From positions 297,089 to 361,088 of the forward strand of contig NZ_PGFZ01000002.1 of assembly GCF_002923755.1 (NCBI RefSeq): 64,000 nucleotides of DNA, given 5' to 3'. The notes under the pieces were generated by a model. It saw only the letters and a list, made by a program, of their open reading frames with translations. It did not search any database and was not told the origin of the DNA. The first letter of the stretch is position 1. Every line of letters begins with the position of its first letter. Origin of the DNA: Methylovulum psychrotolerans. Its GTDB lineage: Bacteria; Pseudomonadota; Gammaproteobacteria; Methylococcales; Methylomonadaceae. Shown here piece after piece: positions 1 through 56,896 of the stretch. The translations under genes were made by a program, and so were the position numbers.

Positions 1-1063
1 TGAGGTTGAAATGAAACGTGCTTTGGCAAAACATGATCAAGGGTTAGCGATTGTTGTTCCTATTTTGCTGAGAGCTACTGATTTAAAGGGGTCTGCTTTT
101 GCAAAATTACAAGGTTTACCCAAAAATCTTAAGCCCATAAAGCAATGGTCGGATTTAGATGAAGCCTATCTTGATGTGGTAAATGGCTTGCGTAAATTGA
201 TTGAAGAAATAAAGTCTATTGAGCCGCCTGTCGTTGAACCTGTATTTTCTGATAAGGATTTTATTGACAAAATTCGCGCAGAATTAAAAAAAATTTTCTC
301 GGTAAAACAACATGCTGTTATTGCGTTGACCGAGATGTTACAAAGCCAATCATCCAAGATTGCACCAGAAGAGATATTGATTCCCGCCGATAATTTCGAT
401 CCTGAAAAAGCCATTAGATTTTGGCGTACAGTGGTTAGAAGCTGTTTAGAACAAAATTCAGGATTTACTCAGCAGATAAAAAAAGTTGCACACGATGTTT
501 TAGGTTGGTTGGCATTGTTTGTTGTCAAAGCCGGTGAAGCAGCCAAGCATGTAGGAACATCAATTAATTTTTTCAACGTGGCAGAAATCGTTGTGCCTTT
601 AGACACGCTAGCCGGTACGGGTATATTTGTTGCCCGATTGTTTGAAAAGCAAGTGCGCTTACAATTAAAGGATAATAACGTATATTGTACTGGCTGGATT
701 AATCCTGGAAAATTAGAAAGAGGGTTTTTTCTTGATGATCGTGTAAGGGATATTGAAAGAGAAATTTACCGCCAAGTGATGTTTGAGTTGCCACCTACAA
801 CAGGGGATTGGTTAGAAGAACTCAGGTATACGCTTGAACTCCGCTATATAGATGACCAAGATGTTTATTATTTTACAATTCCTCGTATAGATTATTCTGA
901 TGATTATGGGATTGTTGAGCAATTGAGAAAAGATTTGCCGCATCTTAAAGCTATTCTTACTGGTAAAGATAAAATAATAGGTGATTCGGTATTGGTAATG
1001 GATGAACCCCGTTTAGTCTCAATACTCCGTGAGTTTTTATTAATGTTGGATAAATTTTCATGA
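1..1063 (+). CDS. TIR-domain effector protein, 5' end truncated by window edge
   Basis: The reading frame is open to the left edge (codons from base 2), so the gene starts outside the window; the ATG at 11 is internal. The first ~65 visible residues match the last third of a bacterial TIR domain: a KRAL-KHDQG helix, a strand ending in VPILLRATD, then KLQGLPKNLKPIKQWSDLDEA and a closing helix. TIR proteins of this type usually cleave NAD+ or make nucleotide signals; the catalytic glutamate region is not visible here, so activity cannot be judged. The remaining ~285 residues have no domain I recognise; part is weakly hydrophobic (around GWLALFVVKAGEAAKHVG). The gene is visibly AT-richer than the next three. 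Its stop overlaps the start of the MoxR gene (ATGA), so the two are translationally coupled. I infer it is the effector of a multi-gene conflict system. Confidence 0.8.
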   Translation, partial: EVEMKRALAKHDQGLAIVVPILLRATDLKGSAFAKLQGLPKNLKPIKQWSDLDEAYLDVVNGLRKLIEEIKSIEPPVVEPVFSDKDFIDKIRAELKKIFSVKQHAVIALTEMLQSQSSKIAPEEILIPADNFDPEKAIRFWRTVVRSCLEQNSGFTQQIKKVAHDVLGWLALFVVKAGEAAKHVGTSINFFNVAEIVVPLDTLAGTGIFVARLFEKQVRLQLKDNNVYCTGWINPGKLERGFFLDDRVRDIEREIYRQVMFELPPTTGDWLEELRYTLELRYIDDQDVYYFTIPRIDYSDDYGIVEQLRKDLPHLKAILTGKDKIIGDSVLVMDEPRLVSILREFLLMLDKFS

Positions 1064-2016
1064 ATAACCCATATTCTACCAAAGAGTTGTTGCCTCTTCT
1101 TAAACAAGGCTCTTGGCCGGACAGCGTCCATCTTTTCGAGCAGCAGCACGGTTATGCCCTGATGGCGGCGGAAGCGGCGGGGCGGCCTTTGTTGTTGCGC
1201 GGCGAACCCGGCACGGGTAAAAGCCAATTGGCTCGTGCGGCGGCGGTGGCGCGGCGGCGGCTGTTTTTATCCGTTGTAGTTAACGCCCATACCGAATGCG
1301 AAGATTTACAATGGCAATTTGATGCCGTGGCGCGGCTGGGCGAAGCGCAAATTATGGCTTCTGTTCCCGCTGGCGACCGTCTTAACCATTTGCACCACAG
1401 CCGTTTTCTCAGTCCTGGGCCGTTGTGGTGGGCGTTAAACTGGGAATCTGCCGAGCGGCAATTTCAGTGCTGTCACCATTCTTGCGACGCTATGCCGGAG
1501 CGTCCGGCGGGTTGGCAACCTAGCCACGGCAGTGTGTTGCTGATTGACGAGATAGACAAAGCCGACACCGATTTGCCTAATGGTTTGCTAGAAACTCTAG
1601 GCAATGGCGATTTTAAAGTGCCATATCTGGGCGAGTCGGTGCGGCGCGGCGCCTGCGTACCTGCACCGCTGGTGATTATCACCACCAATGAAGAACGCGA
1701 ATTACCCGCCGCGTTTGTGCGCCGTTGCTTGGTGCTGCCTTTGGGATTACCAGAAAACCCTGATGAATTGCTGGCTTTTTTGGTCAAACGGGGCGAGGCG
1801 CATTTTGGCGACAAATGCAGCAGCGAAGTGCGCCACCGCGCCGCCGAATTATTGCTGGCTGACCGCGCGGTAGTGGAACCGGGGCAACCTAAACCTGGGC
1901 AAGCCGAATATCTGGATTTGCTCAGGGCGATTACGAACATGGCACAAGTGGAAACAAAACAGCTAGAATTACTGGATACCTTGCGGCAGTTTGTGTACCG
2001 TAAAGCGGCGACGTAA
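1060..2016 (+). CDS. MoxR-type AAA+ ATPase of a TIR/vWA conflict cassette
   Basis: 318 aa. Walker A is GEPGTGKSQLA (residues ~48-58) and Walker B is VLLIDEIDKAD (~158-168), followed by the sensor-like strand PLVIITTNEERELP and the arginine-bearing AFVRRC. This is the MoxR/dynein-related AAA family, whose members act as chaperone-like remodellers, usually paired with vWA-domain proteins. The start overlaps the upstream TIR gene by 4 nt and the next gene starts 7 nt downstream, so the three form one operon. By analogy with described MoxR-vWA conflict systems, I infer that it couples NTP hydrolysis to activation or assembly of the TIR effector. The family call is firm; the immune role is inference. 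Confidence 0.85.
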   Translation: MNNPYSTKELLPLLKQGSWPDSVHLFEQQHGYALMAAEAAGRPLLLRGEPGTGKSQLARAAAVARRRLFLSVVVNAHTECEDLQWQFDAVARLGEAQIMASVPAGDRLNHLHHSRFLSPGPLWWALNWESAERQFQCCHHSCDAMPERPAGWQPSHGSVLLIDEIDKADTDLPNGLLETLGNGDFKVPYLGESVRRGACVPAPLVIITTNEERELPAAFVRRCLVLPLGLPENPDELLAFLVKRGEAHFGDKCSSEVRHRAAELLLADRAVVEPGQPKPGQAEYLDLLRAITNMAQVETKQLELLDTLRQFVYRKAAT

Positions 2017-2023
2017 ACGGCTT

Positions 2024-4768
2024 ATGATCGCCTTAGTTAGCCGTGCCGATTTAGTGGCGTGTCTTAAAGATGCTGATCGCCCGCAGTTAGTGGGGTTGGC
2101 GGCGGCTTTAGGCTATGGTTTGTTTGAGCAAGCGCCCGAACCCGTAACCCCACCAACCCTACCCGATGTGTTAGACATAGATGAGGCGGTGACGGTTGAA
2201 GAAGCCGTACCAGCCCCCGTCCCGCCACAAAACCCAAAGGACACGGCTAAAACCCAAGGCCAGTTTCTGCGCGTGGTTGCCCAGCAAAGTTTTGCTGATG
2301 ACGACGAAGCCGAGGCTGACAAAGCCGCCGTACAATACCTTGACCGGCCAGCCCCGCCAGCCCTGCAAGCCCCCGAAGGCTATAAGCCGCCCGAACAGCC
2401 GCCGCTGATGGCGTGGAACAGGCTATGGCCGTTTTTAAAAATGGCCTTAGGGGCGGATATTGCCCACCATAAGCCGGATATGCCGCGCGTCATCAACACC
2501 TTAGCCAAAGGCAAGCCATTGCGGCGTTTGCCTAAAGTCAAACGCAAAGGCTGGGCTAGCCAAGTGCAGTTAATTATGGATTATGACCCGGCCTTAGTGC
2601 CGTTCAGCCAAGATTTTAACGCCTTAAAAGCCCAGCTTAGCCAAGTGCGCGGTGTGGCGGGGTTGCAGGTGTTGGCGTTGCCCACGGGAGACCCTAGCGG
2701 GCCTTATTGGCAAGCCACGCCCACAGGCTGGCGGCCTCTCGACTATTACCCATGGCCTGCGCCCGGTACACAAGTGCTGGTGTTAAGCGATTTAGGCTGT
2801 AACGGCATGGGCGAACAGCGGCGTGTGCGCTGGCGGCGGTTTGGTGCGCAACTGGCGCGGACGGCTGGCAGGGTCTGGGCGTTAATGCCGTGTCCGCCCC
2901 GTTATTGGGATGCGCAATTGTGCGGGCTGTTTTGTTGCGTGTATTGGGATAGGGGCGTACGGCCACCGCAAGGTGTGGCGCGTTATCGGGTTTATCCGGC
3001 GGCGGATACGGCAGGCGGGCGTGATGAGGGCGCTGCCGAGTGCTTACTGAGCTTACTGGCTATCGCCGTGCGGGTAGAACCTGCCTTATTGCGGGCGGCG
3101 CGGTTGTTGTTTCCTGCCGCCGCGATGGATGTCGGCACTGAATTTGCGGTTTGGAACCATCCGGCAGTACAGGCGGGGCCTTTGGCGTTTTATCTCCAAG
3201 CCGGGCAAGTGCGCCGTTACCGTGAGCAGTTCCGTACCGATGCGCGGGTAACGCCAGCCTTGCAACAGCAAATTAGCGGCTTATTAGCCCAACACCATGC
3301 GGCGTTGTCGCCTGTCATTACTTATGAAGAGCAATGTATTTATGCCGAGTTAACGGGTGACGCGCTGCCGGAGACTGCCCGGCAATTTGCCCAGTGGTTA
3401 GTGGAAACCGTGCAAAAACCCCACGAGGGTGTATTTTTAGCGGCGAAGCAATGGTCGCAACGTATGGGGGGTAGGCAACATCCGTCTTTATGGCAAAACA
3501 AGTTATTAGCCGGGGCGTGGGTTGTCGCTAACCCTGATGTGCCGTTGCCGGAGGGTTTGTCCTTAGAAAACCTCGCCGGGGTGATTAAGGGACCCGTGCT
3601 GAAAAGCTACATTTATCAGCGTGGGCAGGGGGTGGTATTTGCCGCTTCGGCCAGTGAGGCCTCGGGCAGTTTGGTGGGGGAAATTAGTCATCAGTTGGCG
3701 CAGATACAAGTCGAGGGGGTTGCCGAGGCAGGGGCGGCGGTATCGCGCTTGTATGGTATCGGTCAAACGGTGCCATTGCAATACGGTCAAGCGTTGTTAA
3801 TCCGTAGCGACAGGGAAGAATTACGGTTGGATTGGTGTGCTAAGCCAAGCTGGGCGGAGGCTATGGGGCGTGACGGTTTTGGTTTGTATGCGGATTGGCA
3901 GTATAAAGACGTGGTACAGCGGTTCCGTTGGCTGAATCCGGGGCGGTTTTTGATGGGATCGCCGCCGGATGAGGTAGATCGGAGAAATAGCGAAGTGCAG
4001 CATCTAGTGACGTTGACTGACGGTTTTTGGTTGGCTGACACAACGGTGACGCAAGCGTTATGGCTGGCGGTGATGGGCAATAATCCCAGCAAATTTAAAG
4101 ATAATCCCGCTAATCCGGTTGAGACCGTCAGTTGGCAAGATGCTCAAGTTTTTATAGATAAGCTAAAGGGGCTTGAATCCGATTTAGCTGGGCAATTGCC
4201 CAGTGAGGCGCAATGGGAGTATGCTTGTCGCGCGGGTACTGCAACTCCGTTTTCGTTTGGGGCTAACATCACGCCGGAGCAGGTCAATTATGACGGTAAT
4301 TTTCCTTATGCTGGCGGCGAAAAAGGCTTATACAGAGGGCAGACAGTTCAGGTAAAAACACTACCGCCTAATCCGTGGGGCTTGTATGAAATGCACGGCA
4401 ATGTCTGGGAATGGTGCGCTGATGTTTGGCAGGAGCAATTGCCTGCGGGGGGGGCGGTCAATCCGTTTGGTGCCGAAGGTGAGACGGATGCCTTGCGTGT
4501 TGTGCGTGGTGGCTCTTGGGACTACGTCGGCGGGGATGTCCGTTCTGCTATCCGTTCCAGGGACGGGCCAGATAACCGCGACTACAGCATTGGCTTGCGC
4601 CTTGCCCTAGGTCATCCTGAGCTCAGGTCAAGTCAGGTAGCGGCTGGCGGGGTATCGGGCAGACGCGTCGCGGAGCAGCGGCAGACCGAGGCCATACCGG
4701 ACACGGACAATAAGACACCCGATCAAATACAACGTTTGGCCTCTTGGTTTAGGAGGAATGAGAAATAA
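2024..4768 (+). CDS. Degenerate vWA-like protein with C-terminal FGE-sulfatase (C-type lectin fold) domain; putative DGR target
   Basis: 914 aa from the ATG at 2024 (7 nt after the MoxR stop; an in-frame TTG at 1991 would overlap MoxR). Layout: short helical N-terminus (~1-38); proline-rich linker (~40-135); a vWA-like region (~175-330) with strand LIMDYDPALVPF where a MIDAS DxSxS would sit, followed by VLVLSDLGCNG and GRVWALMPCPPRYW; a middle region without assignment; then an FGE-sulfatase domain (~634-866) with FLMGSP, ADTTVTQALW, LPSEAQWEYACRAGT, MHGNVWEWC and VVRGGSW. The MIDAS serines are missing, so metal binding is doubtful. The cysteine pair used by true formylglycine-generating enzyme is absent after GGSW, so the domain is more likely a ligand-binding lectin-fold scaffold. 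The C-terminal part carries a variable segment (4485-4615) and ~50 extra residues. The stop overlaps the next start (TAATG). I infer a sensor subunit. Confidence 0.75.
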   Translation: MIALVSRADLVACLKDADRPQLVGLAAALGYGLFEQAPEPVTPPTLPDVLDIDEAVTVEEAVPAPVPPQNPKDTAKTQGQFLRVVAQQSFADDDEAEADKAAVQYLDRPAPPALQAPEGYKPPEQPPLMAWNRLWPFLKMALGADIAHHKPDMPRVINTLAKGKPLRRLPKVKRKGWASQVQLIMDYDPALVPFSQDFNALKAQLSQVRGVAGLQVLALPTGDPSGPYWQATPTGWRPLDYYPWPAPGTQVLVLSDLGCNGMGEQRRVRWRRFGAQLARTAGRVWALMPCPPRYWDAQLCGLFCCVYWDRGVRPPQGVARYRVYPAADTAGGRDEGAAECLLSLLAIAVRVEPALLRAARLLFPAAAMDVGTEFAVWNHPAVQAGPLAFYLQAGQVRRYREQFRTDARVTPALQQQISGLLAQHHAALSPVITYEEQCIYAELTGDALPETARQFAQWLVETVQKPHEGVFLAAKQWSQRMGGRQHPSLWQNKLLAGAWVVANPDVPLPEGLSLENLAGVIKGPVLKSYIYQRGQGVVFAASASEASGSLVGEISHQLAQIQVEGVAEAGAAVSRLYGIGQTVPLQYGQALLIRSDREELRLDWCAKPSWAEAMGRDGFGLYADWQYKDVVQRFRWLNPGRFLMGSPPDEVDRRNSEVQHLVTLTDGFWLADTTVTQALWLAVMGNNPSKFKDNPANPVETVSWQDAQVFIDKLKGLESDLAGQLPSEAQWEYACRAGTATPFSFGANITPEQVNYDGNFPYAGGEKGLYRGQTVQVKTLPPNPWGLYEMHGNVWEWCADVWQEQLPAGGAVNPFGAEGETDALRVVRGGSWDYVGGDVRSAIRSRDGPDNRDYSIGLRLALGHPELRSSQVAAGGVSGRRVAEQRQTEAIPDTDNKTPDQIQRLASWFRRNEK
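4485..4615 (+). other. Putative DGR variable region VR1
   Basis: Bases 4485-4526 (42 nt) are identical to 5453-5494, and 4592-4615 (24 nt) are identical to 5560-5583. The 65 nt between them align without gaps to 5495-5559 but differ at 17 positions, all but one changing the amino acid or lying in a changed codon. The segment encodes the surface end of the FGE/C-type-lectin domain after GGSW, the usual location of DGR-diversified residues. Ten of the 17 differences have A in one copy, and the others are compatible with an A in a lost or distant template. No template is visible here. Confidence 0.65.
4657..4688 (+). repeat. 32-nt repeat 3' of VR1 with small hairpin
   Basis: This 32-nt block matches 5635-5666 with 3 mismatches, although here it is coding and there it lies after the stop codon. 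Both copies can form a small hairpin, GTCGC-GGAGCA-GCGRC, with a G:T pair tolerated in this copy. DGR targets often have a hairpin just 3' of the variable region that stimulates homing. This one begins 42 nt after the VR1 flank. The stem is only 5 bp, so the role is tentative. Confidence 0.4.
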
Positions 4769-5619
4769 TGAACCTTCATAGCCAACCTTCCCACCCCGTT
4801 TTTCCTTACTCTTGGGCTTCCGATTGGGGCGAAGACCGTTATGGTTTATGGCAAGCTTTTATTTATCAGGCTGTCCGCCATATTTTCCGCTGGATAGAGC
4901 CGGGTAGCTTTATGATGGGGTCGCCTGAAACTGAGCAAGGCCGCTATAGTGATGAAGATTTGCATCAGGTGACAATTAGCCAAGGCTTTTGGTTGGCGGA
5001 AACTACCGTGACCCAAGCCTTGTGGCAAGCGGTGATGGGCGATAATCCTAGCCATTTTAAAGGTGCTGAGTGCCCTGTGGAACAGGTAAGTTGGGCTGAT
5101 GCCCAGGCTTTTATTGCTAAGCTGAGGCAGTTGTATCCTGATCTGAACGCCCGTTTGCCTTGGGAAGCGGAGTGGGAATATGCTTGCCGGGCAGGTACGC
5201 AAACGCCATTTAATTTTGCGGGTGAGTTGACGCTGGCTAAGGTGAATTACCGTGGCACTTGGGAATACAAATCTGATGAATGGGGTAAAGGAGCGAAACA
5301 AGCGACGGCGGAGGTAAAAGCTTATCCCTGCAATGCTTGGGGCTTATTTGCAATGCACGGCAATGTTTGGGAGTGGTGTGAGGATGTTTGGCGGGATTCT
5401 TTGGGTACTGCCGCTGTGTGCGACCCTTGGCAAGTGCCGACAGGTCTGGAGCCGGATGCCTTGCGTGTTGTGCGTGGTGGCTCTTGGGACTACGACGGCG
5501 GGAATGTCCGTTGTGCTATCCGTGAAAGGATCTGGCCAGATGGCCGTTACGACCGCTTGGGCTTGCGCCTTGCCCTAGGTCATGCTGAGCTACAGCAGGG
5601 CGGTGGAACCGCAGGCTAG
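4768..5619 (+). CDS. FGE-sulfatase (SUMF1-like, C-type lectin fold) protein; second putative DGR target
   Basis: 283 aa. The start overlaps the previous stop by one base, with AGGAGG about 10 nt upstream. It carries one FGE-sulfatase domain (~38-275): SFMMGSPETE, AETTVTQALWQAVMGDNPS, LPWEAEWEYACRAGT, AMHGNVWEWC and VVRGGSW. The lead-in SWASDWGEDRYGLW also matches the region just before the FGE domain of the upstream protein, so this gene looks like a duplicated copy of that C-terminal module. The catalytic cysteine arrangement of formylglycine-generating enzyme is absent; the one Cys in the variable segment is not in that pattern. There is no signal peptide. It is probably a second diversified recognition subunit in the TIR-MoxR operon; sulfatase maturation is unlikely. 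Confidence 0.75.
   Translation: MNLHSQPSHPVFPYSWASDWGEDRYGLWQAFIYQAVRHIFRWIEPGSFMMGSPETEQGRYSDEDLHQVTISQGFWLAETTVTQALWQAVMGDNPSHFKGAECPVEQVSWADAQAFIAKLRQLYPDLNARLPWEAEWEYACRAGTQTPFNFAGELTLAKVNYRGTWEYKSDEWGKGAKQATAEVKAYPCNAWGLFAMHGNVWEWCEDVWRDSLGTAAVCDPWQVPTGLEPDALRVVRGGSWDYDGGNVRCAIRERIWPDGRYDRLGLRLALGHAELQQGGGTAG
5453..5583 (+). other. Putative DGR variable region VR2
   Basis: Partner of 4485-4615. Flanks of 42 and 24 nt are identical at the DNA level, including synonymous sites, while the body of the two FGE domains is clearly more diverged. The 65-nt centre (5495-5559) holds 17 substitutions and no indels, clustered in the codons after GGSWDY and around the PD-R motif. Identical flanks with concentrated replacement changes are the pattern left by mutagenic retrohoming; gene conversion plus selection is the alternative. 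Confidence 0.65.
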
Positions 5620-5634
5620 TCGGTCATCGGGTGC

Positions 5635-5666
5635 GGGCAGGTGCGTCGCGGAGCAGCGACAGACCG
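5635..5666 (+). repeat. 32-nt repeat 3' of VR2 with small hairpin
   Basis: Second copy of the block at 4657-4688 (29 of 32 identical), here 16 nt after the stop codon. It contains the perfect short stem GTCGC/GCGAC with loop GGAGCA. It probably marks the 3' boundary of the duplicated module and may be part of a DGR homing site. The remaining bases to 5844 hold no gene I can support. Confidence 0.4.
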
Positions 5667-5844
5667 TGCCGGATGAGCGACGGGGGGATTTATGGTCGCT
5701 ATGATTATTAACAGATAAAAGACACTGAAATCCATATAAAGACAAAAACCGTTTCACATCGACTTATCCCCCATAATTTCCCCCCAATAGCCTACAAATT
5801 TACGCTACTATAAGCCATTACCCACACTTGCGAACGCCAAGAAA

Positions 5845-7425: not shown

Positions 7426-7477
7426 TTAATGGCCGTTGTACGTTATTCACGGTTCGAAATTTTTAATAGGTCAGCGC

Positions 7478-8440
7478 ATGAATTTTCTTGATATTAAAAC
7501 CGATTTTGCGTTTAAAAAAGTCTTTGGCAGCGAAGGCTCTCAGGATATTTTGCTCAGTTTCCTCAATTCGGTGCTGGATTTTAACGGACGGTTGATTACG
7601 GACCTGATATTTGTTGACCCGTATAATATCCCGATGTTGAAGGGTATGAAGGATACCTATGTCGATGTCAAAGCGAAACTGGATGACGGCAGCCAAGTGA
7701 TTGTCGAAATGCAGGTGCTGCACCATGAAGGTTTTGAAAAGCGTATCCTCTATAACGCCGCGAAAAATTATTCTGCCCAACTGAGTAAGGGTGAGGATTA
7801 TGGTCTGCTCAATCCGGTCATCGGTTTGACGTTGACCGATTTTATCCTTTTCCCAGATCAGCCGTTGATTAACGGCTTTAAGTTGCTGGAGAAAGAGCGG
7901 TTTATCGAATATAACGACGATATTGAGCTGGTCTTTATCGAATTGCCGAAATTTACTAAAACCGAAGCTGAGTTACTTACTATTCAGGATAAGTGGCTGT
8001 ATTTTATTAAAAATGCGGGCAAGTTAGATGCCGTGCCTAAAAATCTGGCGCGGGAGCAGGAAAAAGCCTTTGCGATTGCTAATGAGGCTAATTTAAGCGC
8101 GGAAGAGCTGGATTTACAGCATCGAAAGCGCGATTGGATTATGATTCAAAAAGGGGCATATTCGCTGGCGTTGAAGCAAGGGCTTGAACAAGGCATGGAA
8201 CTGGGCATCGAAAAAGGCATGGAACTGGGCATTGAAAAAGGCATAGAGCAGGGCATCGAAAAAGGCATGGAACTGGGCATTGAAAAAGGGGTTGGGCAGG
8301 GCATAGAACAAAACCGCCGCCTGATTATTGCCAACGCCGATAAAGCGGGCATGGGTGTTGATGCCATTGCCGCCATTGTCCAGTTAGATGCTGCTGAGGT
8401 GGCGGTGATTTTGGCAAGCTGTGCCGATAAGGCGCAGTAG
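7478..8440 (+). CDS. Rpn family recombination-promoting nuclease / PD-(D/E)XK transposase-like protein
   Basis: 320 aa from the ATG at 7478; an earlier in-frame ATG at 7436 lies in untranslated-looking sequence next to the MITE. The N-terminus FLDIKTDFAFKKVFGSEGSQ is characteristic of the Rpn/YhgA-like family, followed by a PD-(D/E)XK-type core with YVDVKAKLDDG and IVEMQVLHHEGFEKRILYNA (the E-Q motif). Family members in E. coli are DNA endonucleases that stimulate RecA-independent recombination. The C-terminus (~234-280) is a run of short charged repeats of the GMELGIEK type, a usual and variable tail in this family. It is probably a selfish or defence-type accessory gene; catalytic residues look intact. 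Confidence 0.88.
   Translation: MNFLDIKTDFAFKKVFGSEGSQDILLSFLNSVLDFNGRLITDLIFVDPYNIPMLKGMKDTYVDVKAKLDDGSQVIVEMQVLHHEGFEKRILYNAAKNYSAQLSKGEDYGLLNPVIGLTLTDFILFPDQPLINGFKLLEKERFIEYNDDIELVFIELPKFTKTEAELLTIQDKWLYFIKNAGKLDAVPKNLAREQEKAFAIANEANLSAEELDLQHRKRDWIMIQKGAYSLALKQGLEQGMELGIEKGMELGIEKGIEQGIEKGMELGIEKGVGQGIEQNRRLIIANADKAGMGVDAIAAIVQLDAAEVAVILASCADKAQ
8180..8311 (+). repeat. In-frame 12/24-nt tandem repeats in the Rpn tail
   Basis: About ten 12-nt units of the form GGCATNGAANNN encode alternating G-(I/M)-E-(K/L/Q) residues, with a higher-order 24-nt period (GMELGIEK). Unit number can change by slippage without breaking the frame. This is expected for the Rpn family and gives a length-variable charged helix. 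Confidence 0.8.
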
Positions 8441-48694: not shown

Positions 48695-51600
48695 ATGCTT
48701 ACAGCGCATTTCCCGAAACGAAGCCGTCCCTTAGCCAATAAAAGCTACTGGGCCGCCAGCCTGTTTGTCCTGTTGTGCCTGCTGGGGAGTCTTATCCCCG
48801 CCCCGTATTCCCCGGCCTTGGCCAGTAGCACCAATAACAACGCGGTGGTGGCGCTGCAAATCGGCAATTACGTCCTCATTTCCAAGCGTAAAGCGTCAAA
48901 TACCCTATACGATTACACCTACCAAGCCAGCATCACCAATTTGGGTACGGCCACGGCGCGTAACGCCAAAGCCAAGGCGGACAGCCTTAATCCTGCCATC
49001 AAACTGCAAAACCCCGACCTGCAATTCGGCGATGTGCCGCCCGGCAAGACCGTGGCCAGCCGCGACACCTTCACCCTGCGCAAAGCCGACAGCACCGTCT
49101 TTAAGCCCACCGATTTGAAGTGGCAATTCAACCAGCCGCTGTCCCCGGTCGCCAATGCCGGCCCCGACCAGACCGTCGCCTTGGGCAGCACCGTTTACCT
49201 GGACGGCAGCGGCTCTTTTAATCCCGAAGAGGACGAAGACGACCCCGTCGTTTACCAATGGAGCTTCCTCAGCAAACCCGCCGGCAGCACCGCCACCTTA
49301 TCCAAGCCGACAGCAGTCAACCCCAAGTTTATCGCCGATAAAAAAGGCAGCTATACCCTGCAATTGGTCATCGGCCAAGGCCATTGCCTCAGCGCCGCCG
49401 ACACCGTCGTCATCAGCACCAGCAACAGCGCCCCCGTCGCCAATGCCGGCCCCGACCAATCCGTGCACAGCGGCGACACCGTCGTTTTAGACGGCAGCCG
49501 TTCCGGCGATGCCGACCACGACCCGTTAACCTATAGTTGGACACTGACCAACAAGCCCGCTACCAGCCAAGCCGTCTTAACTAACCCGACCACCGTCAAC
49601 CCCCGTTTCATCGCCGACCAGCCCGGCACTTATTCCGCACAACTGATCGTTAACGACGGCCATGCCGACAGTGCCGCCGCCATCGTGCTGGTCACCACCG
49701 TCAATACCCGCCCTGTCGCCCGGACAGGCGGCGACCAAAGCGCGAAAGTCAACACCCTTGTCTTGCTGGACGGCAGCGCCTCCAGCGATGCCGACGGCGA
49801 TGCCTTAAGCTATAGCTGGACGCTGCTCAGCAAACCGGGCGGCAGCACTGCCATTCTCAACAACCCGCTGAGCGTCAAAGCCAGCCTGACCCTTGATAAG
49901 GCGGGCGTTTACGTCGCGCAACTGATCGTCAAAGACGCGCTGTCCGACAGCGACCCCGTCACCGTCACTGTTACCACCGAAAACAGCCGCCCCACCGCCA
50001 ACCCCGGTTTAGACCAAAGCGTCGCCCTCAACACCGTTGTCCAATTGAGCGGCGCGGCTTCCGGCGACCCCGACAGTGACCCGTTAAGCTACCAATGGGC
50101 CATGGTGAGCAAGCCCGCCGCCAGCCAAGCGGTGCTGTCCGACCCCGTGCTGGTCAGCCCGACCTTTACCGCCGACAAGCCCGGTAATTACGTCCTTAGC
50201 CTGAGCGTCAACGACGGCAAACTCACCAGCGACCCGGCCAACGTCACCATCAGCACCCTGAACAGCCGCCCCGTCGCCAATGCGGGCAGCGACCAGACCG
50301 CCGCCCAAAGCCTGATTTTCTTAGACGGCACCGCTTCCAGTGATGCCGATAACGATCCCCTGACTTACCAGTGGTCGTTATTAAGTAAACCCGCCGCCAG
50401 CCAAGCGGCCTTGAACGGCATCACCCTCAGCAAACCCCAATTCACCGCCGATTATCCGGGCTATTATGTCGGCCAATTGACCGTCAACGACGGGCATTTA
50501 GACAGCGACCCCGATACCGTCACCGTCGAAGTGCCGTCTATCCTGTTCAACCACGCGCCCGGCATCACCTCGCTGGCCCCAATCACCGCCACAACCGGCA
50601 CCGCTTATACCTACACAGTAGCGGCCAGCGACCCCGATGCCGGCGACACCCTGACCTTCAGCCTGGGCAGTGCGCCCGCCGGGATGCAGATCCAAGCCGA
50701 CACCGGACTGATCCAATGGCAACCGGATGCTAGCCAAATCGGCAGCTTTGCCGTGGCCGTGACCGTCAGTGACCGCTTCGGCGCTACAGTGACCCAGAAT
50801 TTCTCGGTCACTGTGACCGCCGCCGTCACTACCACCCGCGTCCCCACGGTCATTGGACAAGCCAAAGCCGCCGCTGTCGCCGCACTCAGTGCCGCCCACC
50901 TCAACCTGGGCAACGTCAGCTACGTCTACAGCGACACCGCCGCCTCAGGCACCGTCATCCAAGCCACCCCCGCCAGCGGCACTTTGGATATTGGCGCACC
51001 CGTCGATCTGGTGATTTCTTTAGGGACTAACAGCGGCTTGCCGCCCGATCCCAGCGCCGTCGCACCGCCCCTAAACCCGACCGCGCCCGTCACCCCGCTG
51101 AACCAAGCCGCCAACTTCCTGTATACCGGCGAGCATCCGGTGCAAACCGGGCTGCTGGCCAGCACCATCGACGCCAAACGCATCGCCGTTATTCGTGGCA
51201 AAATCCGGACCCGTGCCGACCAAGCCTTGGCGGGTGTCACCGTTTCGGTCAAAAACCACCCCGAATTCGGCCAAACCCTTTCGCGTGCCGACGGCCAGTT
51301 TGACCTGGCGGTCAACGGCGGCGGCTACCTGGTGCTGGATTACCAAAACCCCGGTTTCTTGCCAGCCCAACGCCAAGTCAAAACCCCGTGGCAGGATTAT
51401 GTCTGGGTCGAGGACGTGGTATTGCTGCCCTTGGACAGCCAAGTCTCCGCCATCGACTTGAGCGCGTCCAACCTGCAAGTGGCACAAGGTAGCCCCAGCA
51501 CCGACGCCGACGGCATCCGCCAAGCCACCGTGCTGTTCCCGGCCGGCACCCAAGCCACCATGACCCTGCCGGATGGCAGCAGCCAAGCCCTGACCGCTCT

Positions 51601-54600
51601 GCATGTCCGCGCCACCGAGTACACCGTCGGCGCCAACGGCCCCCAAGCCATGCCCGGCCCCTTACCGCCCACCTCCGGTTACACCTACGCCGTAGAACTG
51701 AGCGTGGATGAAGCCGTGGCGGCGGGTGCCACCCAAGTCAACTTCAGCCAGACCGTCCCGTTTTATGTCGACAACTTCCTCAACTTCCCCACCGGTTCGG
51801 TAGTGCCGGTCGGCTGGTATGACCGGGCGAAAAGCGCGTGGATCCCGTCCGATAATGGCCGGGTCATCAAAGTACTGGGCGTTAGGGATGGCGCCGCCGA
51901 CCTGGACACCGACGGCGACGGCGTGGCTGACAACGCCGACCAATTGGCGGCTTTAGGCGTGACGGCGGACGAACAGGCGCAGCTTGCCGTGCTGTATGCG
52001 CCGGGCAAGACCTTATGGCGTTCGCCGTTAAGGCATTTTTCGCCGTGGGATTTGAACTGGCCTTGGGGGCCACCGCCTAATAGTGTGCCTCCTGCGTCTC
52101 AGCCGCCATCTAAAAATCCGACACCAGATAAGGATAGTGACATTTGCCCAGGATGTGCCATCAATGCTCAAGCCGGAACGGTAGGCGAAGAGCTGCCCGT
52201 CTTAGGCACCCCGTACTCCCTGCATTACCAAAGCAGACGGGCTAACGGTTACCGCCCTGAACAGGCCATCCCCGTCACAATTTCCGGCAGCACGCTACCC
52301 GATAGCCTAAAGGGTATCGATGTGTCGGTGTCGGTTGCGGGGCAATCTTTCAGCCGGTCTTTTCCGGCAGAACCCAACCAATCTTATACCTTTGACTGGA
52401 ACGGCCTCGACGGCTATGGCCGTCCGGTGACCGGGGCGACCGTGGCGACGGTTACGCTCAGCTACAACTACAATCTCGTTTACTATGCGGTACGGCAAGA
52501 TGTAGCGCAAAGCTTTGCCCAAGTCAGCAGCGAACCCGGCGCGGCCTTTATTGCTGGTCGCTATGCCGCCACTTTTGCCATGACACGGACTTGGCAACAA
52601 ACGCTTACCAAGAATCAGAAGGAGCAACCATTAGGCAACTGGAGTTTAAATATTAACCATAGTTACGATGCTCTTAACCAGATGATTGAATTGGGGACTG
52701 GGGAGCACCGTAAGGCCGGTGATTTAGGCAGGGCCATCACCACAGTGGCGGGTAACGGTGGGATGGGGTTCAGTGCGGGTAGTCAAAACGCCAAAACAAC
52801 GCCGCTAAATTATCCCCGTGACGTTGCGGCCGCACCTGATGGCGGCTTTTATCTGGCCGATACTTCCAATAACCGTATTCGGCGCGTCAAGCCTGATGGC
52901 AGCATCGTTACGGTAGCCGGTACCGGCTACCCCGGTTACGGAGACAGCCGCTATGCCGAGGGTGCGCTTGCTACGCAAGCGCCGCTTAACTATCCCACAG
53001 GCATTGCCCTTGGCCCGGATGGCAGCCTCTATATTGCCGATTATGTCAACCAGCGTATCCGTCAAGTCAGGCCGGACGGCACCATCATTACCGTAGCGGG
53101 TAACGGAACGGTCGGCAGCGGCGGCGACGGTTATTTTGCCAAGCAAGCGCAATTTAATTATCCGAGTGATATCGCCGTGGGCGCTGATGGGAGCCTGTAT
53201 ATTGCCGACACCCTAAACAACCGTATCCGTAGGGTTGGCCCTGATGGCATCATCACGACCGTGGCGGGTACTGGAATTTATGGTTACAGCGGCGATGGCG
53301 GTCCGGCAACCCAAGCCGCTATTTATAGCGGTTGTCTTGATGTCGGCTCTGACGGCAGTATTTACCTGGCTGGGGGGAGCCGCATCCGGCGCATCGATCC
53401 TTCCGGTGTTATCACGACCATAGTGGGTACCGGAAGTAGTGGTTACAGCGGCGACGGCGGGCCAGCCAATCTGGCGAGAATTGACGGCGGCGGTTGCCCC
53501 GATGTTCAAGCTGACGGTAGCCTTTATCTTGGCGGTTACGAGAACTACCGTGTCCGGCGGGTCGATCCGAACGGTATCATCACTACCGTAGCGGGAACTG
53601 GGAGCCGCGGTGATAGCGGTGATGACGGTCTTGCCACGCAGGCACAGATTGATGAGGCGGGCATTGATGTCGGGCCAGACGGTAATCTTTACTTAGCCGA
53701 CTGGAGAAACCAACGGATTCGCCGGGTGGCTTCCATTTTGCCGGGATATAGCGTCAACGATGTGCTGGTCCCTTCCGACACCGGTGATGAAATCTATCGG
53801 TTTGACGCATCGGGAAAGCATCTGGGCACCTTGGATGCGCTAACCGGCAGCGAACGTTACCGTTTTGCTTATAATGCTGCCGGACAACTGACCCAAATCA
53901 CCGATGCTGACGGCGACATGACCCGCATTGAACGGGATGGTATGGGCAAGCCTTTGGCGATTGTCGCACCGGACGGCCAGCGGACGGTATTGGCAGTAGA
54001 CAGTAACGGCTATCTTGCCTCGGTCAGTAATCCGGCAGGTGAACCCCACCGCATAGCCTACACCGCTGACGGGTTGATGAGCCAGTTTACCGATCCTAAC
54101 GGCAACAGCACCAACTTTGGCTATGATAGCCTTGGCTATTTGCTGAAAGACACCAACGCAGGTTTGGGGGGCTGGACGGTTACCCGCACCGAAACGGTTA
54201 GCGGGCATAGCAATACCATGACCACCGCCGAAGGCCATGCGACAAGCTTCTCTGTAGACACCCTGCCTTGGGGAGACCGCCGCCAAGTCAACACCTATCC
54301 TGACGGCACTACCCAAACTAAGCTGTTCAAAACCACCGGTGAAGAAACCACCGCCAGCCCCGACGGCTCTTTCAGTTCCCTCCTGCAAAAACCGGATCCG
54401 CGCTTTGGGATGCAAGCCCCTGTTTCGGGTACGTCCAGTGTCCGCTTGCCAAGCGGTTTGACTTTAGCCGCCTCCACGACCCGTACGGCACGTCTGGCCG
54501 ACCCTAACGATCCGCTCAGCTTGATAAGCTTTACTGAAAGTGCCGAAGTCAATGGCTTCTCCCATACGCGTAACTTTAACAAAGCCAGCCTGACCTACAC

Positions 54601-56896
54601 TGACACCACCCCCACCGGACGGACAACCACCACCCAAGTCAACGCCAACAACCGCCCGCTGCAAACCAGCGTCCCGTCCCTTTATCCGGTCACCTACAGC
54701 TACGACAGCCGGGGCCGTCCCACCAGCATCCAACAAGGCCCCGCCGCTGCCCCGCGCGTCAGCCAAATCAGCTACAATGCCCAAGGCTACGTCGACACCC
54801 TGACCGATGCCCTCAACCGGAACACCACCTTCCACTACGACCTGGCCGGACGGGTCACCCGCAAAACCCTGCCCGACGGGCGCGAACTGGCCTACAGCTA
54901 CGACGCCAACGGCAACCTGACCTCGCTCACCCCGCCCGGGCGGCCGCCGCATGTGTTCGATTACACCCCCGTCGATTTGGCCGACCGCTACACCCCGCCC
55001 GCCGTCGGCCAAGGCAACCCGCAGACGCTGTACGAATACAACAAAGACAAACAGCCGACCCGCATCACCCGCCCCGACGGGCAACGCTTGGACTTCGGCT
55101 ATGCTGCCGCCAGCGGCCAGCTCCTCAGCCTGACCACCCCAGACGGCGCGTACAGCTACCGCTACTCGCCCACCAGCGGGCAGATGACAGGCCTCACCGC
55201 CCCCGACGGCAACCAGCTCGGCTACACTTATGACGGCTTCTTGCCCAAAACCACCACCTGGACAGGCGCGGTCAGCGGCAGCGTCAGCCGGGGCTACGAC
55301 AGCGACTTCCGCACCACCAGCCTGGCCATCAGTAATTTCAGCATCTCCAGCTTCAGTTACGACCGGGACGGCTTGCTGGTTATTGCCGATGGCCTCACCC
55401 TCAGCCGTGACCCCAACAACGGGTTGCTCACCGATACCGCCCTAGACCAAGTTACCGACAGCTACACCTATAGCGGCTACGGCGAAACCCAAAGCTACCA
55501 AGCCGCCGCCAACAACAGCCGCGTCGCCCAGTGGACATACCAACGCGACAGCCTGGGGCGCATCACCCAACGCCAAGAAACCCTGCAAGGCGTGACCACC
55601 ACCTACGGTTATAGCTACGACCCCGCAGGCCATCTGCTCGAAGTCACCGCCGACGGCAACAGCCTGGCCACCTACAGCTACGACGACAACGGCAACCGCA
55701 CCAACACCAGCCCGGGCGCAGGCGCGGCGGTCATCGCCCACTACGACGACCAAGACCGCCTGCTCGACTATAGCGGCAGCACCTATAGCTACACCGCCAA
55801 CGGCGAACTGCAAAGCAAGACCAAAAACGGGCAAACCACCCAATACACCTACGATGTTTTGGGCAACCTCAAACACGCCACCCTGCCCGACACCACCGCC
55901 ATTGGTTACCTTACCGACGGGCAAAACCGCCGCATCGGCAAAACCGTCAACGGCGTGCTGGTGCAGGGCTTCCTCTACCAAAACCAACTCAACCCCATCG
56001 CCGAACTGGACGGCAACAACCGGATCATCAGCCGCTTCGTCTACGCCAGCAAAGCCAACGTGCCGGATTACTTCGTCAAAACCGACCCCAACACCCAAAA
56101 CCAGACCACCTACCGCATCATCAGCGACCACCTCGGCAGCCCCCGTTTGGTCATCAACACCGCCGACGGCAGCGTCGCCCAACGCATCGACTACGATGTC
56201 TGGGGCAGCATCACCCAAGACACCAACCCCGGCTTCCAGCCCTTCGGCTACGCAGGCGGCCTGTACGACCAACACACCAAACTTGTCCGCTTCGGCGCAA
56301 GGGATTATGATGCCGAAACCGGACGGTGGACGGCGAAAGACCCAATTGGGTTTGGGGGTGGGGACAGCAACCTTTATGGGTATGTGGTCGGTGATCCGGT
56401 TAATTGGAGTGATCCTAATGGGCTTTTGCCACAAGAATTAGTGGATTTTTCTGCTGGAATGGGTGACACTTTATCGTTAGGTCTAACTGACTTGATTCGC
56501 GATCAAATGGGAACAAATGGTGTTGTAAATAAGTGTTCTGGTGCATATGATGCTGGAGAATTGGCGGGTGCAGGCACTTCTTTGGCAACAGGAGTTGCGG
56601 GCGGTATCCGCGCGGCAGGAATGAAAGGCCCCGGTTTGGAATTTTCACATTGGATACCAAACCGCATGGGAGGCCCTCGCTCAATCTGGAACGGTAACTA
56701 TGTGTCTACAGCAGAACATGCGTTGTCAGATCCATACCGTTATCGGTTTATGCCGAGAGTATGGAAGGCAGCTAATCCGCTTCCGAATCAAATGGTTCAG
56801 CAGTGGAACAGAATACCTAATGTTTACAAGGGAGGGGCAGCGGGTGCTGCTTGGGGAGCCGCAGGGATGGCGAATTCAGGTTGCGAGTGTCAATAA
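48695..56896 (+). CDS. Giant secreted RHS/YD-repeat polymorphic toxin with PKD, PASTA and NHL modules
   Basis: 2,733 aa. Signal peptide with cleavage near ALA-S (~44). Then in order: a CARDB-like domain (~50-146); five PKD/K319-type repeats (~151-613, each with VANAGPDQ-like starts and D-DPL-Y-W); a cadherin/He_PIG domain (~620-708); a PASTA domain (~716-778); a carboxypeptidase-regulatory-like domain (~831-910); a cysteine-bearing [13 protein letters not shown] segment before YD-associated sequence; six NHL-type repeats (~1348-1683, NNRIRRV-PDG); YD repeats (~1690-2470); and the RHS core (~2472-2576) ending [16 protein letters not shown]. The last ~157 residues are a variable toxin tip with [12 protein letters not shown] and [17 protein letters not shown], no family recognised. 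The tip is AT-richer than the core, which suggests module exchange. The layout resembles teneurin-like shells that enclose the toxin. Confidence 0.9.
55690..56410 (+). repeat. RHS core segment duplicated downstream (direct repeat, partner ~58600-59332)
   Basis: The core from TYSY-type YD repeats to DPVNW is repeated about 2,922 nt downstream with high DNA identity, including long identical stretches. Alignment ends at the DPNG boundary, after which the toxin tips differ entirely. The partner has an 18-nt insertion near 58676-58699. Recombination between the repeats would swap the toxin tip. Confidence 0.8.

Follow-up and report, generated by a model that had tools for sequence, protein, structure and literature searches.

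Paired variable repeats in two adjacent genes

We analyzed a 64,000-nucleotide stretch of DNA from Methylovulum psychrotolerans (contig NZ_PGFZ01000002.1, positions 297,089 to 361,088 of the forward strand; hereafter the window, whose coordinates are used unless another locus is named), in which two adjacent genes end in paired variable repeats of the kind written by diversity-generating retroelements (DGRs), whose reverse transcriptases (RTs) copy a template into target genes with mutation at template adenines. Gene 1 (1991–4768, + strand, 925 amino acids) consists of a long N-terminal extension without a Pfam domain and a C-terminal FGE-sulfatase domain (residues 647–872; PF03781, 9.3e-39), and its true start may lie slightly downstream of 1991. 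Gene 2 (4768–5619, + strand, 283 amino acids), the start of which overlaps the stop of gene 1, encodes an FGE-sulfatase domain only (PF03781, 2.3e-41). Its closest solved relative is Treponema denticola variable protein 1 (2y3c, 3e-22), which belongs to a different operon and host and is a DGR variable protein (Kaur et al. 2020, PMC7159879).

The two repeats, VR1 (4485–4615, + strand) and VR2 (5453–5583, + strand), lie in the 3' ends of these lectin-fold (FGE) genes, and each is made up of a variable core (4527–4591 and 5495–5559, respectively) between two homogenised flanks. As a preliminary description of this DNA had stated, 42 nt (4485–4526 and 5453–5494) and 24 nt (4592–4615 and 5560–5583) are exactly identical between the genes, while the 65-nt block enclosed by them contains 17 substitutions and no insertions or deletions, with A in one copy at 10 of the 17 variable sites. 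Twelve of the 22 block codons differ and 11 of these 12 change the residue (proportions of non-synonymous and synonymous differences, pN and pS, of 0.31 and 0.10). The further point made there, that a template A fits every variable site, is correct, but it holds for any substitution between two copies and is therefore weightless alone. Beyond 4615, one mismatch is followed by seven further matches, and the full ungapped repeat (4481–4623 and 5449–5591) is 87% identical.

The FGE domains of genes 1 and 2 share 56% protein identity, and upstream of 4487 they are 60% identical in DNA and 44% identical at third codon positions (199 aligned codons); given this divergence, identity of the flanks requires that both were derived recently from one source. 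At 60% identity per site, the probability of a 42-nt identical run is ~6e-10 and that of both runs ~3e-15. Apart from the repeat, the two genes agree best over 101 nt (77%) and 85 nt (76%), in a different register (offset 962). Ordinary constraint, with diverged FGE genes sharing a conserved motif by chance, would find some footing in RGGSW and G(F/L)R, both of which are conserved motifs of the FGE family; however, the identical flanks cover every third position of 21 codons, compared with 44% identity upstream, and the flanks of the window pair, with 0 of 57 differences from each other, differ at 10–17 of 57 positions from the flanks of 11 other genomes. We regard this explanation as extremely improbable. 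Elsewhere, flank differences between genomes were 0–5 of 57 within the G122/G111/G121 and G117/G114 groups (genomes are designated by G and loci by L numbers), and differences within a genome reached 5–7 in G023, G117 and one G196 pair.

Fit of the pair to templates of related genomes

We searched 237 genomes of the window's family with gene 1 and with a DGR RT profile composed of five DGR RTs and Brt of phage BPP-1. Gene 1 matched in 59 of the 237 genomes at E 1e-40 or better, in many cases through the FGE domain only. Repeats and templates were picked by a motif pattern from 51 hand-chosen stretches of 29 genomes, yielding 86 segments, and those with at least seven AAC/AAT codons were called templates (14, from 11 genomes). 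Loci L093, L094 and L096–L099 were excluded from the motif set (of these, L097 and L099 contain repeats), the pattern overlooked some repeats, for example those of gene 2 in G121 and in G251, and pair counts exclude repeats differing in length.

Near relatives of genes 1 and 2 adjoin DGR RTs and templates. In the nearest complete case, G045 (same order), two FGE genes, the shorter of which is 60% identical to gene 2, flank an HRDC gene, an RT and a template, and 16 of 17 and 10 of 11 mismatches between template and repeats fall at template A. Over 23 template–repeat comparisons in relatives, 315 of 334 core mismatches (rows summed) faced a template A; 15 of the 19 exceptions sit in G255, the template of which looks partly altered.

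Thirteen of the 17 variable sites of the window pair lie at columns with A in at least half of the 14 templates. The mean template A-frequency is 0.66 at the 17 variable columns compared with 0.36 across the core, a value reached by 6 of 20,000 permutations, or by 18 of 20,000 with codon position kept. When three single templates were used instead, A was found at 11 of 19, 10 of 17 and 13 of 17 variable sites (p of 2e-4, 4e-4 and 6e-6, respectively). Twelve pairs with a template at the same locus (served pairs) have 0–2 of 45 flank and 13–20 of 72 core mismatches; the corresponding counts for the window pair are 0 and 17. Counted back from the end of the Trp codon, the block begins at 35 nt and template–repeat matches of relatives at 15–37 nt (23 comparisons); the value for the 3' end, 32, is less telling, as template–repeat matches run 17–25 and served repeat pairs 20–54. 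Moreover, both copies carry an AGGTC mark (positions by counting), at 4609–4613 (+ strand) in VR1, which is +17 from the GLR codon, and at the matching place in VR2 (5577–5581, + strand). AGCTC is present in 11 of the 14 templates of relatives (nine at +17) and AGGTC in 47 of 72 repeats, with AGCTC at +17 in none of these 72; therefore, both window copies resemble repeats and neither resembles a template.

Orthologues of the pair are themselves hypervariable. Among the adjacent pairs of G122, G121 and G111, which are closely related and hence not three independent cases, orthologues have 0–11 mismatches in 600 upstream positions, 0 in 100 downstream positions, and 15, 15 and 21 (gene 1) or 18 (gene 2) in the 72-site core, the core differences being at A columns (mean A-frequency 0.80–0.88). 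Less clean cases were G251/G254 (1 of 600 upstream, 23 core, 31 of 100 downstream), G117/G114 (56 of 600 with 18 core, and 443 of 600, which is not alignable, with 21 core) and a second locus of G121/G111 (31 and 1 of 600, core 10 and 11, downstream 0).

These data also bear on an origin without any DGR, namely gene conversion of a 131-nt stretch between tandem paralogues followed by positive selection on a binding loop. Such an origin would suit two neighbouring paralogues in which 11 of 12 changed codons are non-synonymous, but it fits poorly with a block whose 5' end falls where template–repeat matches of relatives end, with variable sites at template-A columns, with an AGGTC mark and a hairpin core (see below) that belong to the DGR repeats of relatives and with the A-targeting of the same gene class in close relatives. 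We thus consider gene conversion improbable. Both variable regions are genuine and were very probably produced by a DGR, and the agreement of 13 of 17 sites with template-A columns, the DGR RTs beside relatives and the hypervariable orthologous pairs support the earlier proposal that both genes are DGR-type targets rewritten from one template.

Search for a reverse transcriptase and a template in the genome

The same proposal had placed the DGR at a remote site of the genome, and here it was not borne out: a genome-wide look for a third copy (the template) and a DGR RT found neither in the assembly, a 97-contig draft with a tool-estimated completeness of 99.99%. A Pfam RVT_1 search and a search with the DGR RT profile both failed to find a DGR-type RT in the draft genome. 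RVT_1 gave four matches on three RTs, which are those of a group II intron (TIGR04416, 343 bits, above the cut-off), an RT-Cas1 and a type IX retron with a helix-turn-helix partner (by PADLOC, RT 1.2e-140 and partner 1.2e-63; L019 6310–8180, contig 2 of this genome, G000). The DGR RT profile matched only the group II intron and RT-Cas1 RTs, at 84 and 83 bits (18 of 18 candidates scored). In at least 13 genomes of the family it scores 303–445 bits, and lower scores in the family include group II intron, RT-Cas1 and MutS-linked RTs. As a control, the Pfam RT search does detect BPP-1 Brt.

RTs of ~500 amino acids in relatives were considered and set aside as other DGR-like RTs, distinct from the missing one; none at that score is present in the M. 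psychrotolerans genome. A 520-amino-acid RT of G183 (L120 1099–2658), which reaches 255 bits against the DGR RT profile, carries MutS domain I at its C-terminus and adjoins an Lcl_C gene (L120 3393–4091), and similar RTs occur in L123 and L113. The RT-Cas1 of M. psychrotolerans lies in two overlapping frames (L021 2819–4787, G000 contig 89), representing a frameshift, an assembly error or two genes.

Nor was a template found in the genome, either with VR1 as the query, which recovered VR2 and had its best non-self match at E 1.1 (14 of 14 candidates scored), or with a 26-base flank pattern allowing three mismatches. At such a search-space size, 23 of 23 known template–repeat pairs reach E 1.5e-33 or better. 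Four scans of viral contigs for the flanks or for template-type 3' ends returned no exact matches. The absence of RT and template is strong yet not final, because the assembly is a 97-contig draft with short N gaps (runs of 9–10 bases in three of the six stretches of this genome that were read), and a hidden cassette or a lost plasmid may account for it. A 921-amino-acid protein encoded elsewhere in the genome (L030 6334–9096, G000 contig 5) has a P-loop, identified by eye, and a C-terminal FGE domain; its repeat-like end is unlike the window pair in length and flanks and is without the AGGTC mark.

Target pairs without a resident template

Relatives of the pair are also present in G196, G159, G178, G156, G177 and G173, genomes of 1–4 contigs in which several of the repeats are decayed and in which no DGR-type RT was found (best score 134 bits, all candidates scored). 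In G196 (two contigs; best RT match 116 bits), flank mismatches number 0 of 45 in one pair and 4 in another. The window's family thus contains repeated instances of targets that have no DGR in their own genome.

The matching template for the pairs of G122, G121, G111 and G125 was not found in their assemblies. The G122-type template search, in which all 7–17 first-look candidates were scored in each of G122, G111, G125, G121, G117 and G114, gave matches with at least seven AAC/AAT codons that turned out to be templates of other classes (stretch L344 held no motif segment). The nearest candidate in G122, on contig C222, had 82 of 140 matching, and the query was too distant for G183 and G196. 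The paired repeats are spaced 1,020 nt apart in G122 and G111, compared with 968 nt in the window, which leaves no room for a cassette between them; DGR RTs are found at other loci in G122, G121 and G125. Fresh-looking repeats without a matching template were seen at loci L271, L275, L272 and L273.

In G065, a template and a target gene (L290, contig 344, 778–3048) share an 8.1-kb plasmid-like contig with Rep3 and RepL-like replication genes, and relatives of one DGR RT were retrieved from nine plasmid records at E 1e-30, with avd annotated in two of them.

Long hairpins behind the repeats

A shared element, a 27-nt core between partly complementary arms, follows both window repeats. In gene 1 it takes the form of a degraded 3' hairpin inside the open reading frame (ORF) (4642–4702, + strand; arms 4642–4658 and 4686–4702, 10 of 17 pairs Watson–Crick, conserved core 4659–4685), and in gene 2 that of an imperfect 3' hairpin just past the stop codon (5620–5680, + strand; arms 5620–5636 and 5664–5680, 13 of 17 pairs Watson–Crick, conserved core 5637–5663). 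When folded as DNA, the former had a z score of −1.1, with 23 of 200 shuffles equally stable, and the latter a z score of −4.0, with none of 200.

The long arms were traced from a 33-nt repeat behind both window repeats, that is, by a data-led search with controls run afterwards. Across 13 sequences with the core, the arms pair in 89.6% of cells compared with 59.5 ± 2.7% in shuffles, in an alignment (A3) drawn from 23 segments that left out four duplicates and six others, mostly weak (5–11 of 17), which favours pairing, and that included the two window copies as well as a weak one from G065 (6 of 17). Sixteen of the 17 arm pairs have changed on both sides, and sliding the partner by 1–3 columns reduces pairing to 31–42%. 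The arms pair at 16–17 of 17 positions in the G122, G111 and G125 pairs compared with 10 and 13 in the window, and the two G125 genes have perfect yet different 17-bp arms (fold z scores of −7.1 and −9.6). Other target classes show stems of similar length with other loops, the loops being alike among the repeats of one locus (L086, L266 and L269).

Among 71 repeats, 24 have a stem of at least 13 pairs within the following 180 nt (21 of 65 when duplicates are dropped), and none of the 14 templates has one. Control windows contained such a stem in 0 of 144 cases when placed upstream and in 2 of 130 when placed farther away. Most repeats, including those of several loci with a template, show no such stem. 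The core has 92 matches (up to 3 of 19 mismatches, many overlapping) in 341 sequences, and 86 of these have a repeat within 250 nt upstream. Further long-hairpin loci include L273 (4289–4365 and 5968–6044), L271, L274, L289 and others. Short hairpins (at least 5 bp with a 3–6-nt loop) behind repeats did no better than shuffles, p values of 0.05 or less being obtained for 10 of 71 repeats and 1 of 14 templates.

The element is unlikely to be an intrinsic terminator, because in the long genes it lies inside the ORF. A dispersed repeat or miniature inverted-repeat transposable element (MITE) was also considered and rejected, the 64-kb window holding two copies, both behind repeats; the long hairpins may still have a mobile-element origin, an option that we keep because MITE-like stem-loop repeats are described in MoxR-linked DGR loci (Dore et al. 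2024, PMC10907252). The DGR of phage BPP-1 (NC_005357; Guo et al. 2011, PMC3240598) shares with the loci described here A-mutagenic template-to-repeat copying, a difference between repeat and template at the 3' end and a downstream hairpin, which in BPP-1 raises homing. In phage DGRs, BPP-1 included, these hairpins consist of 7–10-bp stems with 4-nt GRNA loops, situated 4–34 bp from the repeat (PMC3240598), whereas the strong ones in relatives of the window pair have stems of at least 18 bp and loops of 14–29 nt. AvpA (PMC5006420), a DGR variable protein that differs in being archaeal, has a hairpin or cruciform that follows the repeat within its own coding sequence, a placement found in the long genes here too.

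We read the long hairpins as a putative enlarged form of this BPP-1-type or archaeal hairpin signal. As a speculative reading to which we give a low probability, target genes of the family may bear a DNA address in the form of a long hairpin or cruciform, mostly 24–74 nt behind the repeat, with a stem of up to ~23 bp that drifts in sequence yet stays complementary and a loop that is conserved within a target class. With such an address, even a DGR borne on a plasmid-like element might reach several targets in trans; adjacent gene pairs, that of the window among them, would form a class addressed in this way. We met no description of long stems downstream of repeats in cellular DGRs in the literature searched, which did not extend to subscription papers.

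Probable recent orphaning or possible continued rewriting in trans

We favour as probable the reading that the pair was recently orphaned, its RT and template having been lost from the genome. Genes 1 and 2 would be two sensor-like targets of a MoxR/TIR-type conflict operon, and a DGR would have copied one A-rich template into the 3' ends of both, giving rise to identical flanks and scrambled residues on the lectin-like binding face of proteins that may sense invaders. Loss of the RT and template would be recent, since the flanks are still identical, and the pair would now hold frozen variants and be starting to lose its 3' hairpins. Four of the 17 variable sites are at columns with A in <15% of templates, compared with 0–2 sites in the 12 served pairs; the 15 other unserved pairs have 2–5 such sites in eight cases and 0–1 in seven. 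Third-position changes likewise number 3 of 17 compared with 0–2 in served pairs. The four low-A sites reflect either a template with unusual adenines or a core beginning to drift, and together with the degraded 3' hairpins they suggest recent orphaning.

A number of observations weigh against this reading. The column fit of the window pair, 0.66, is lower than that of all 12 served pairs (0.71–0.91), and A is present at the CGC/CGT site in one of the 14 templates. The odd sites amount to 4 of 39 in the core compared with 0 of 66 in the flanks (p of 0.017), and drift of the core is weakened by these intact flanks, so that a template with unusual adenines may explain the odd sites instead. The gene 1 hairpin of G114 is also weak (12 of 17) though the G114 pair looks fresh. 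Finally, the assembly has N gaps, and the pairs of G122, G121, G111 and G125 look freshly rewritten without a matching template in their assemblies, so a missing template is no proof of inactivity.

A possibility that we rate as less probable is that the pair is still live and that RT and template reside on a plasmid, a phage or an unassembled stretch and act in trans. In its favour, the flanks are still identical, adjacent pairs in relatives seem active in assemblies that yielded no matching template, and the plasmid-like contig of G065 and the plasmid records with RT relatives, two with avd, offer examples of a suitable carrier. Against this, neither RT nor template was recovered despite 99.99% completeness, the viral contigs scanned held no exact matches to flanks or template ends, the window hairpins are degraded, and G122, G121 and G125 hold DGR RTs elsewhere in their genomes whereas M. 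psychrotolerans holds none.

Targets that outlive their mutator would show the aftermath of stopped programmed hypermutation, and among the related genomes the pairs range from served to decayed. How a DGR selects its targets in cellular (non-phage) systems is suggested by the covarying hairpins that follow the repeats. If such pairs are rewritten in trans, surveys confined to RT neighbourhoods overlook them, a blind spot that Roux et al. (2021, PMC8144416) state for their own survey, in which targets away from RTs were missed.

Operon context and comparison with known systems

The window opens with the 3' part (1–1063, + strand) of a gene that begins upstream of it and encodes a metallophosphoesterase, then a TIR domain and then an unknown domain. 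This gene is split by an N run just outside the window (L029 12080–12089), the gap lying inside the TIR domain. TIR_2 (1.6e-11) and Metallophos (2.9e-09) were matched in L029 10719–12077, and a ThsB profile matches the L029 part with its positions 3–75 and window 11–1060 with its positions 79–147. The next gene (1060–2016, + strand) encodes an AAA ATPase (AAA_5 1.5e-11; MadB family ATPase 6.1e-17, below its cut-off) that we call MoxR-like from its family context, and it adjoins the target genes, as in MoxR ternary conflict systems.

The arrangement resembles the MoxR-linked two-target DGR loci of clade 5A (Dore et al. 2024, PMC10907252), with which it shares a MoxR-like ATPase just upstream, a long target with a domain-less N-terminal extension beside a short lectin-only target, a TIR effector nearby and a variable repeat in the C-terminal lectin-fold domain. 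Unlike in those loci, the window targets abut without a cassette between them and no RT or template was found in the genome. A MoxR-like ATPase, TIR and an FGE (FGS) domain fused to a long partner are also features of VMAP and other MoxR-vWA ternary conflict systems, for which Kaur et al. (2020, PMC7159879) describe templates that are either close by or at another place in the genome. In contrast to those systems, Pfam gave no vWA or VMAP match in the genes scanned, namely the four genes of 11–5619 and the upstream gene. The kind of system is already known from these two studies (Dore et al. 2024; Kaur et al. 2020), and what is new is the orphan pair and the long covarying hairpins.

Two further features of the window lie downstream of the operon. 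A PD-(D/E)XK transposase-family protein (7436–8440) has a run of MELGIEKG-like repeats near its C-terminus, and a 2,733-amino-acid protein (48695–56896) contains PKD, teneurin-like NHL, YD-shell and RHS repeats.

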